DNA of 64,000 nucleotides from positions 650,334 through 714,333 of the forward strand of contig CANMBU010000003.1 of NCBI GenBank assembly GCA_947496175.1, given 5' to 3'. The stretch is from an uncultured Roseovarius sp. GTDB lineage: Bacteria > Pseudomonadota > Alphaproteobacteria > Rhodobacterales > Rhodobacteraceae. A program made the position numbers and the translations under genes. The notes beneath the pieces were generated by a model, which saw only the letters and a list, made by a program, of their open reading frames with translations, made no database searches and was not told where the DNA came from. Position 1 is the stretch's first letter; each line of letters starts with the position of its first letter. Of this stretch, positions 56,016 through 60,008 are shown one piece after another.

Positions 56016-56918
56016 TTATTCCGCCGGAACCAGCTTTTCGTCGTGAATGGGGCGCATCCGTTCCCAAATCAGCCATCCACCGGCCAGGATAATGATGAAC
56101 GCACCCAGATAGGTCTGCGTCGAAGGTGTTTCGGCAAAGACGGACCAGCCGATGACAACCATCCAGATGAACTGCAGGTTCATCAGTGGCGTCACCACGA
56201 AGGCGGGCAAAATCCGCAACGCCGCAACCAGCACCCAACGCGCGCCAAAGAGCAGCAACGCGTATAGCGCAGCAAAGCCAAGATCGAGGCCGCTCATGGG
56301 GGCAAAAACAAAGGGCAAGGCCAGCCCCATCACCACCATTAGCGCCAGATTGGGGTAAAAGACCTGGGCAAGCAGGTTGCTATCGCGCTGTCCGATATAG
56401 CGCGACGCAACCATCGAGACAGAGCCCAGCAGCACGGCGGAAAAGGCCACAAGATGGCCAAAGCCGATACCCTGCAACCCGGCCGGAAAGAGACACGCGA
56501 CGCCAATAGTCCCTAACCCGAGCGCGACCCAGGTTTGACCGCGCACCGGCTCTCCTAAAACTGGACCCGAGAGGATAGCGGTGATCAGTGGGATAAGCGC
56601 GATGAAGAGAAACACATCCGCAAAGGGCAGCAGGCGGAAGGCGTGGAAAAACGCCAGCGTTCCCAGTACCGTCGCCACAACCCGAATGGTCATGGCCCAA
56701 GGGCAGAGTGTTGTCATCGAGCGCCTGTGCCCGCTTGGGTCGCGGTTGGCCAACAGGCTGAAAAGAGCGACCAGACCGCCCGAAATGGCAAAAAGCTGTG
56801 GTGCGGAGTAAGACTGTGCAAAGCCCTTGGTGATCGCGTCCGCGCCGGTGATCAATAAAGTGTAGAGCCCGGTGAGCGCAACGCCGGAGAGTACAAGAGC
56901 GGAGGCACGTTGGCGCAT
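56016..56918 (-). CDS. EamA/DMT family transporter
   Basis: 300 aa, ~10 TM, LLPFADVFLFIALIPLITAILSGPVLGEPVRGQTWVALGLGTIGV; start overlaps the upstream stop (TAATG). Confidence 0.9.
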   Translation of the reverse strand: MRQRASALVLSGVALTGLYTLLITGADAITKGFAQSYSAPQLFAISGGLVALFSLLANRDPSGHRRSMTTLCPWAMTIRVVATVLGTLAFFHAFRLLPFADVFLFIALIPLITAILSGPVLGEPVRGQTWVALGLGTIGVACLFPAGLQGIGFGHLVAFSAVLLGSVSMVASRYIGQRDSNLLAQVFYPNLALMVVMGLALPFVFAPMSGLDLGFAALYALLLFGARWVLVAALRILPAFVVTPLMNLQFIWMVVIGWSVFAETPSTQTYLGAFIIILAGGWLIWERMRPIHDEKLVPAE

Positions 56919-57991
56919 TATCCCATCGCTCCTGGGGCGCTTGATCTCGCGAAGCCCTGGAAGAAAGACTGGAAGTCCACGGCTTGTTCTGCGGTATCGA
57001 TCACTTCCCTCGCCATGTCCGAAAGCGACCCGTCCAGCAAGCGACGCATAACCGACCAGTCCGGATGGCGTGGCTCGTCCAGCGTATACATTTGCTCGGA
57101 CAGCTCGCGGAGTGGTGCAACCTCATGCCGGGGTGCAGTAAAACTGATTGGACCGTCGGGGATCTGAGCGCCAAATCCGCCTTGCCCGGACAGGGCAAGG
57201 TGCCAGTTCAGCATGAAATACGGATGATAGGCGTCTGAACGCCAGCCAATGTCGTCTTCGCGGATCGCAAAGTAACGGGTTTGCTCGGCCAGCCATCCAT
57301 CCCAGCTTTGCGGCGGCGTGACCCCGGCAAAGCGCAGGGCGATGCAAATCTCTGCCAGCAGATCGATGTTCAGCTCAAGATAGGCCAAAGTACCTGCGAA
57401 GGTCAGACTTTGGATCGACTTTTCATCAAGGCAGGGATCCTTCAGACCATAGTCGGACAAGTAGAACACGATGTGCGTCAGCTCATAAGCGGCCTTCTTA
57501 TTGGGTATCGCAAACGTTTCCGACCGTGTCGTGAAATCGCGCAACCGGTCATCCAGTCCCGGGTCGCGGGACACGGGATCCACCCCGCGGCGCAGGCACA
57601 AACGCCGTGCCTCAGCACGCTGCAAGTCTGACAGTTCAGCACCCACAAACCCTTGCTTTGCAACCCATTCCACTGCGGCTTCCGCACGGTCTCCTGGCAA
57701 TCCAAGGTCCTCAAGATCAAGACACATCGACAGTAAAAAACGATAATATTGCGGGAAAAAACTGAGGCGTTTTTCGATGGTGGTGTAGAAGTCATCGAAG
57801 GGCGCAAGCGAGGCCAAAGGCAACTCAAAGCCGCAGCTTTGATAGATGTTGAGCAACTCTGCGTTTTCCTTGAGCCAGAATACATCCTGCTGCGGACGGC
57901 GCTGCGACACAAACCGCTCTAGCAGTGCCGCCTGACGCGACTCAGGCGTCGATTGGCGGAACGGAAAATCGAAGTGAACGATGGATCCCAT
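56918..57991 (-). CDS. Uncharacterised ~357-aa protein, candidate partner/maturation protein of the FTSSL-repeat peptide
   Basis: MGSIVHFDFPFRQSTPESRQAALLERFVSQRR...NKKAAYELTHIVFYLSDYGLKD...; AAGGAAGG RBS-like sequence before ATG 57991; no family confidently recognised. Confidence 0.85.
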   Translation of the reverse strand: MGSIVHFDFPFRQSTPESRQAALLERFVSQRRPQQDVFWLKENAELLNIYQSCGFELPLASLAPFDDFYTTIEKRLSFFPQYYRFLLSMCLDLEDLGLPGDRAEAAVEWVAKQGFVGAELSDLQRAEARRLCLRRGVDPVSRDPGLDDRLRDFTTRSETFAIPNKKAAYELTHIVFYLSDYGLKDPCLDEKSIQSLTFAGTLAYLELNIDLLAEICIALRFAGVTPPQSWDGWLAEQTRYFAIREDDIGWRSDAYHPYFMLNWHLALSGQGGFGAQIPDGPISFTAPRHEVAPLRELSEQMYTLDEPRHPDWSVMRRLLDGSLSDMAREVIDTAEQAVDFQSFFQGFARSSAPGAMG

Positions 57992-58036
57992 GAATGATAC
58001 CTTCCTTAACAACCAAATTCCGTTCCGCTGAGCCGG

Positions 58037-58390
58037 TTACAGGCTCGATGTGAAGGCGTGGACAGCGTCGCCCTCAACCGCCTCGGAGGCGCGGACAGGG
58101 CCGAGGCTTGATGTGAAAAGCTCAACTGCGTCGCCTTCTGTTGTCTCAGACGCCCGGACTGGACCAAGGCTGGAGGTGAAAAGTTCCACCGCATCGCCGT
58201 CCATATCTGAGGAAGTCACGGGCGTGAGCGACGATGTGAACGCCTCAGTGCCCTGCCCCATATGTGCGTCGGCTGCTGTCACAGGCCCCAGCGATGAGGT
58301 GAACGCCTCAACTGCGGACCCGTCGAACATGTCGGCGCTTGTGTCTTCTGTGGTGTTGTACGAAATATTTTCTTTACGAAGTGCTACCAT
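58037..58390 (-). CDS. 117-aa repeat protein: short leader plus five tandem ~21-aa FTSSL-(G/T)PV units (candidate multi-core precursor peptide)
   Basis: MVALRKENISYNTTEDTSADMFDG-SAVEAFTSSLGPVTAADAHMGQG-TEAFTSSLTPVTSSDMDG-DAVELFTSSLGPVRASETTEG-DAVELFTSSLGPVRASEAVEG-DAVHAFTSSL*; AAAAAAGGAGATGACCT RBS. Confidence 0.93.
   Translation of the reverse strand: MVALRKENISYNTTEDTSADMFDGSAVEAFTSSLGPVTAADAHMGQGTEAFTSSLTPVTSSDMDGDAVELFTSSLGPVRASETTEGDAVELFTSSLGPVRASEAVEGDAVHAFTSSL
58040..58321 (-). repeat. Five in-frame tandem repeat units, period 60-63 nt
   Basis: Phe of FTSSL at residues 30, 51, 71, 92 and 113 (spacing 21, 20, 21, 21). Confidence 0.93.
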
Positions 58391-58481
58391 AGGTCATCTC
58401 CTTTTTTGCGGCAGTGCCGGTGAGTGTCTAAACCGTTACACGGCAATCGGGTCACAACAACAAAAAAACAACTCAAGGTTG

Positions 58482-58580
58482 TTATCCACATAGGTCTCAG
58501 GCCTGTGGATGACTTCTCAGAGCATTGATGATCAGAGACTTGATGTCCGAAAAAACTTGCCGAAAAAAATTTTATCCACA
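58482..58580. promoter_or_regulatory. DnaA-box-like cluster
   Basis: TTATCCACA at 58482-58490 and 58572-58580 (+), TGTGGATGA at 58504-58512 (reverse-orientation TCATCCACA, one mismatch); flanked by A-tracts. Confidence 0.6.
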
Positions 58581-58726
58581 TGGGTAAAGTTGCAAGCTCA
58601 GCCTTAACGGCGCTGTGTGAATAGACGAATCAACCTGAAGGTGAGTTGTGATTTGCTGCCGACCTGCAGCCTCACCTTGCCAGAGCGCGCAGACTGGGCG
58701 ATAGACACGTAGCAAAGGGAGGCCAC

Positions 58727-59622: not shown

Positions 59623-59781
59623 TCACATTCCAATAATTCCAAACGCATAAATTCCGGATGTCAGAAAAACAATTCCAGAGACATAGTCAGTCATTTTACG
59701 CGGTTGTTTTTTAGGGGCCATGGTCCAGTCAGACCATTTGTTGTGGTTTTCTTCTTGGTCGACAGTGTCCCAGTAGTTCAT
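59623..59781 (-). CDS. Small single-TM hypothetical protein
   Basis: MNYWDTVDQEENHNKWSDWTMAPKKQPRKMTDYVSGIVFLTSGIYAFGIIGM; polar N-terminus and one C-terminal TM helix. Confidence 0.5.
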   Translation of the reverse strand: MNYWDTVDQEENHNKWSDWTMAPKKQPRKMTDYVSGIVFLTSGIYAFGIIGM

Positions 59782-60008
59782 AGCAGCCTCTCTCGGTGCC
59801 CCCACCAAGGCTTACTAGACACCTCAGAAATATGTCAAAAATGAGGCAAGTGAGGCAGAAATTGGGTCTACGCCCCAAGCATTTACATGCATTCTTCGCG
59901 CTCATACATCAATCACCTCCTGAGGCTCACATTGTCCACAAACTTGAATAAATGCAGAGGTCAAACTTCACACATAAAGTTTAGGCTTACTGGCGACGAA
60001 GATAATTC

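Follow-up and report, generated by a model that had tools for sequence, protein, structure and literature searches.

A cassette of three genes in a 64-kb stretch of DNA (the window, meaning the whole stretch analyzed) looks like an undescribed route to a short modified peptide in marine Roseobacter-type bacteria. It encodes a precursor with repeated pentapeptide cores, a protein of the Pfam family DUF6902 and a carrier of the EamA family. The gene set, the homology of DUF6902 to the family DUF6895, the near-obligate pairing of precursor and enzyme, and the position of the last core at the precursor C-terminus are established. The best explanation, to which we give about an even chance, is a multi-core RiPP-type cassette in which DUF6902 epimerizes the cores and EamA exports the product. 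A literature search of limited extent found no earlier description of the cassette.

Cassette layout and the multi-core precursor

The three minus-strand ORFs proposed by the initial annotation were all recovered by sequence and ORF check (Table 1). Its gap of about 45 nt with a good RBS, between the precursor and the 357-aa gene, is exactly 45 nt and holds a GGAAGG-type RBS, and the TAATG overlap is present where the TAA stop of the DUF6902 gene meets the EamA start.

Table 1. Features of the cassette and its upstream region, in window coordinates
Feature	Position	Strand	Size or residues	Description and basis
Precursor gene	58037..58390	-	117 aa	leader MVALRK..., then five FTSSL cores
Core 1 FTSSL	58289..58303	-	residues 30-34	sequence
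Core 2 FTSSL	58226..58240	-	residues 51-55	sequence
Core 3 FTSSL	58166..58180	-	residues 71-75	sequence
Core 4 FTSSL	58103..58117	-	residues 92-96	sequence
Core 5 FTSSL	58040..58054	-	residues 113-117	last residue is the precursor C-terminus
DUF6902 gene	56918..57991	-	357 aa	putative peptide-modifying enzyme; Pfam, alignments, AlphaFold model
EamA/DMT exporter gene	56016..56918	-	300 aa	putative exporter, Pfam; cassette-specific orthologue
Intergenic region to divergent xthA	58391..58726	.		two TTATCCACA sites and GTGTAACGGTT element

The five FTSSL cores of the window precursor are encoded by five different DNA sequences and separated by acidic spacers. Tandem Repeats Finder, at score 40, did not report the array because the copies have diverged in DNA and are conserved only as protein. 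Pfam and NCBIfam searches of six precursors gave no match above cut-off, and NCBIfam has no name for either the precursor or the 357-aa protein. Across precursors, a short N-terminal leader with the consensus M-x-A-[LQ]-x-K is followed by 2-20 pentapeptide cores, with G-[DE]-x-x-x-[MLA] in front of every one; the glycine six residues ahead of the core is nearly fixed. Among 81 precursors (from the window and the best 80 of 344 loci), 18 core types occur, including FTSSL, FSSGS, FTSGS, FTSGL, FTSSM, FTSWS, FVSWS and FCSAS. Ser and Thr, and at times Cys, are abundant in the cores. Exact copies of the genome's own core make up 572/613 core-like windows in this set, and several of the inexact ones are chance look-alikes. 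The precursor ends exactly at the last core in 76/81 cases, pointing to core residue 5 as the last residue of the product; Trp-type precursors (FTSWS, FVSWS, FISWS) have five residues after the last core.

A repetitive protein with acidic spacers could also have a structural, surface or metal-binding role, DUF6902 being its accessory factor. This reading is very improbable: by eye, no hydrophobic stretch resembling a signal peptide is seen in the leader, most cores lack Cys or His, and the core is held almost exactly while the copy number varies. It also fits poorly with the leader-core layout and an EamA partner.

Co-occurrence of the genes and their chromosomal site

In a genome-neighborhood survey, a check suggested by the initial annotation, the precursor lies directly upstream of the DUF6902 gene in 80/80 further loci and the EamA gene directly downstream in 74/80. 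These are the best-scoring 80 of 344 loci, mostly from Roseovarius, Shimia, Primorskyibacter and their relatives, and they consequently lean to the window's relatives. The recurrence of the arrangement in all 80, together with the five DNA spellings of the five cores, argues that the cassette is not a product of chance. The six loci without EamA (L094, L095, L107, L109, L122 and L130) retain precursor and enzyme, which points to these two as the core of the system.

A family sample of 199 genomes, drawn evenly from the window's family, is free of the bias toward the window's relatives, although some of the named loci belong to the same genomes. DUF6902 was found in 56/199 and a detectable precursor in 52/199, in nearly the same genomes; G133, counted among the 52, has a weak precursor match and no DUF6902. 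Three further precursors, with the cores YIAGL (L163), FSSGS (L164) and MMCCS (L165), were added by eye. A precursor accompanies DUF6902 in 54/55 assessable genomes of the family sample, G140 having been left out because a contig end cuts the locus. In a class-level sample, 3/290 genomes scored above cut-off, all from the window's family.

The initial annotation had read the cassette as repeat precursor, maturation enzyme and exporter, and this reading withstood every refutation test named with it. The 357-aa gene is not widespread without the repeat gene, the sole case being a degenerate copy (described below); no repeat gene was met with unrelated neighbors; and the linkage to EamA is kept.

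The third gene matches EamA (PF00892) at E 7e-14, the likeness it shares with EamA/DMT exporters of amino acids and small metabolites. It differs from these in that, by sequence comparison, it belongs to an orthologous group of its own, specific to the cassette: EamA relatives in other cassettes match it at about 1e-62 to 1e-137, and the best paralogue in its own genome at E 2e-20. EamA-family carriers normally move small molecules.

The cassette occupies a fixed site between the divergent xthA and erpA-dgt. Within 3 kb of it, xthA is found in 72/80 and erpA in 76/80 loci (best 80 of 344), most of the loci lacking one or the other being on short contigs. In 13/15 non-carriers tested, no cassette separates xthA from erpA, and the two genes are no more than about 1.1 kb apart. 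The conserved neighbors are xthA, erpA, an HD phosphohydrolase and other housekeeping genes, and with such flanks inheritance looks mainly vertical, with losses. The patchy presence in the family sample could point to a phage-derived or anti-phage defense cassette, but this is scarcely credible for a single fixed chromosomal site between housekeeping genes. A plasmid, viral or defense origin was rejected, as no relatives were found in viral contigs or plasmids and PADLOC gave no match.

Several elements were observed in and near the intergenic region. The only two exact TTATCCACA (DnaA-box) sites of the window are located between precursor and xthA, at 58482-58490 and 58572-58580; an exact DnaA box near xthA is present in 47/74 carriers vs 0/16 xthA loci in genomes that lack an intact cassette. 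Most loci (L061-L140) have a conserved element upstream of the precursor start, with a consensus near GTGCAAGCGTT, the window copy being GTGTAACGGTT at about 58431-58470. It is probably a promoter or operator; a simple promoter and terminator scan gave no more signals than were found in shuffles. A small ORF of 61 aa at 59623-59808 has no Pfam match and contains one hydrophobic segment.

DUF6902 and its DUF6895 relatives

The initial annotation described the 357-aa protein as unknown and free of radical-SAM, YcaO, LanM and protease motifs. Pfam and NCBIfam agree that these domains are absent, as are graspetide domains and matches to nucleotide- or cofactor-binding families. The protein is nevertheless not without a family: it belongs to Pfam DUF6902 (PF21843; E 8e-145, 482.7 bits vs a gathering score of 27) and also matches DUF6895 (PF21836; E 3e-20, 73.3 bits vs 23.8), a match that covers the DUF6895 profile only in part. 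The two families align by hhalign at E 4e-9 over the conserved middle. H173, G182, D210, E214, Y255 and H256 are invariant in both, and Y169 is invariant or nearly so across the alignments.

Structure prediction, also suggested by the initial annotation, gave an all-helical AlphaFold model with a pLDDT of 90.5. The accompanying fold search found no PDB counterpart at E < 0.001, and a PDB sequence search returned nothing significant; with no similar fold in the PDB, the active site of DUF6902 cannot be read from a solved relative. Terpene-cyclase-like fold matches, at TM 0.40 or below, were set aside and used merely as a hint of an alpha/alpha arrangement. An AlphaFold-type model of one DUF6895 member (pLDDT 53) was too poor to use.

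A DUF6895 protein is reported as an epimerase from a lasso-peptide cluster (Shi et al., ACS Catal. 2026, doi 10.1021/acscatal.5c08590; PMC13352647, ref. 371). Its family is homologous to DUF6902 and has the same invariant residues, and the protein reportedly acts on a ribosomal peptide. The present cassette departs from it in its multi-core precursor, its unrelated leader, the absence of a lasso cyclase or protease, and the separate Pfam family of its enzyme; no asparagine-synthetase-like lasso cyclase and no B protein were found among the neighboring genes. Acid/base epimerization is carried out by MslH, the epimerase of the lasso peptide MS-271, which uses two His/Asp pairs (PMC10406935). 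The likeness to MslH is one of working only, namely acid/base epimerization of a ribosomal peptide, should DUF6902 act in this way: MslH has a calcineurin-like, metal-dependent fold, unrelated to the all-helical fold predicted for DUF6902.

Epimerization is favored since it is the sole activity found reported for the superfamily, and since it would call for neither a redox nor a nucleotide cofactor and would suit a pairing of His with acidic residues of the kind seen in MslH. From the alignments, His173/His256 and Asp210/Glu214, with Tyr, are the predicted catalytic residues of DUF6902. In a RiPP-type cassette, the enzyme could instead perform dehydration, cyclization, cleavage or another metal-assisted reaction. 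The superfamily fold has no close PDB match, the two invariant His, with the invariant Asp, Glu and Tyr, could coordinate a metal, the cores offer Ser/Thr and sometimes Cys, and a homologous family may depart from one chemistry. Against the single reported activity and the lack of matches to nucleotide- or cofactor-binding families, we consider these reactions rather unlikely, though they carry real weight.

The degenerate copy mentioned above bears on whether DUF6902 is an enzyme at all. In the genome G039 (L162), a divergent DUF6902 gene occupies the same site without precursor or EamA; Y169, H173, D210, E214, Y255 and H256 are gone, while G182 and many conserved positions are retained. G039 is a natural control, in which enzyme residues and substrate were lost together. 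This joint loss, and the fact that catalytic-type residues are strictly conserved in three phyla, argue for an enzyme and make it improbable that the cassette is a signaling unit free of covalent modification, with DUF6902 as a peptide-binding chaperone or receptor and the cores as linear motifs or a clipped, unmodified signal. Cores that are uniform within a genome and change between species, like a recognition code, would suit such a unit.

Peptide genes are also found beside the relatives. A small peptide gene lies upstream of eight DUF6895 genes (L158-L161 and L167-L170), which come from Pseudomonadota, Bacillota and Actinomycetota; a ninth, L171, has no precursor in the stretch examined. 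The leader motif [LI]xx[SAKQN][GN][ILVA][ILV][ND] is present in 8/8 of these peptides vs 17/6098 background ORFs, the motif having been written post hoc, after inspection of the eight. Their pairwise similarity reaches E 6e-14, and 7/8 contain a Trp core, e.g., GPWFVL, in some of them twice. The peptides look like an undescribed precursor family, and their adjacency to DUF6895 genes suggests that the superfamily is made up of peptide-associated enzymes, the core appearing to have been multiplied in the Roseobacter branch. At some loci, a second part with a QQxxDGSFG-type motif comes after DUF6895 or is fused to it (L167 6874-7521, L169 4431-4991, and the C-terminus of the L159 and L170 proteins), which by eye resembles motifs of alpha/alpha-toroid enzymes.

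Proposed pathway and concerted change of the cores

In the proposed pathway, the ribosome would make a cytosolic precursor with a short leader and 2-20 pentapeptide cores, FTSSL in the window. DUF6902 would bind the precursor by recognizing the leader and modify each core, the likeliest chemistry being a cofactor-free acid/base epimerization of one core residue, in which the invariant His173/His256 and Asp210/Glu214 would act together with Tyr. A short peptide, probably ending in core residue 5, would then be freed by a protease encoded outside the cassette and exported by the dedicated EamA carrier. Proteolytic release is the step we hold to be quite probable, export by EamA is somewhat favored, and epimerization of a core residue by DUF6902 falls just short of an even chance. 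The cassette has the features expected of a RiPP cluster: a precursor beside a putative modifying enzyme, a conserved leader with a variable core, and a predicted exporter. A leader or core protease, common in such clusters but not universal, was found neither in the cassette nor among its conserved neighbors, and may be encoded elsewhere. Its absence counts against the multi-core RiPP-type explanation, as do the 6/80 loci (best 80 of 344) without EamA and the fact that DUF6902 and DUF6895 precursors have neither leader nor core in common.

Several similar short cores, separated by spacers in one precursor, are also known from fungal Kex2-processed repeat proteins (PMC7329392) and plant orbitides (PMC9308333). 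The cassette differs from both in being bacterial, in using another enzyme, in lacking Kex2-type dibasic sites, and in having nearly all cores identical in each genome.

This uniformity can be traced in the DNA. Between copies within genomes, the nonsynonymous difference is 0.066 in the core vs 0.36 in the spacer, whereas the synonymous difference is 0.54 vs 0.62; the two serine codon families are probably behind much of the core's nonsynonymous figure. Hence, most copies are old, and the core has nevertheless been held identical. Recent tandem duplication was rejected as the general cause of identical cores, synonymous sites being heavily diverged between copies, although recent duplicate repeats do exist at some loci, e.g., L110. 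The core type switches at least 23 times across a tree of 79 enzymes, and nearly all copies follow. L110 and L126, whose enzyme genes are 90% identical in DNA, carry seven FTSGS vs six FSSGS copies; in their orthologous repeats, the flanks match and ACN is opposed to TCN, with varied third bases. The copies are kept uniform either by selection or by conversion confined to the core. Concerted core change amid heavy synonymous change represents an unusual case of selection for a uniform product and is suggestive of a recognition code.

A bolder interpretation is a lineage-coded signal, in which DUF6902 would place D-residues in the repeated pentapeptide and the species-specific core would be a pherotype read by a receptor, leaving the copies no choice but to change in concert. 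On this view, DUF6895/DUF6902 would form a peptide-modifying class that spans phyla and has precursor families of its own. This interpretation is doubtful. In the multi-core RiPP-type explanation, the two domains of unknown function gain a candidate substrate, an enzyme role and predicted catalytic residues. The cassette suggests a class of short modified peptides, so far undescribed, in about one in four of the genomes sampled from an abundant marine family, with related enzymes beside shared-leader precursors in at least three phyla. In one precursor, that of L118, FTSGS and FTTSA core types are interspersed, possibly a switch in progress or a source of two products.
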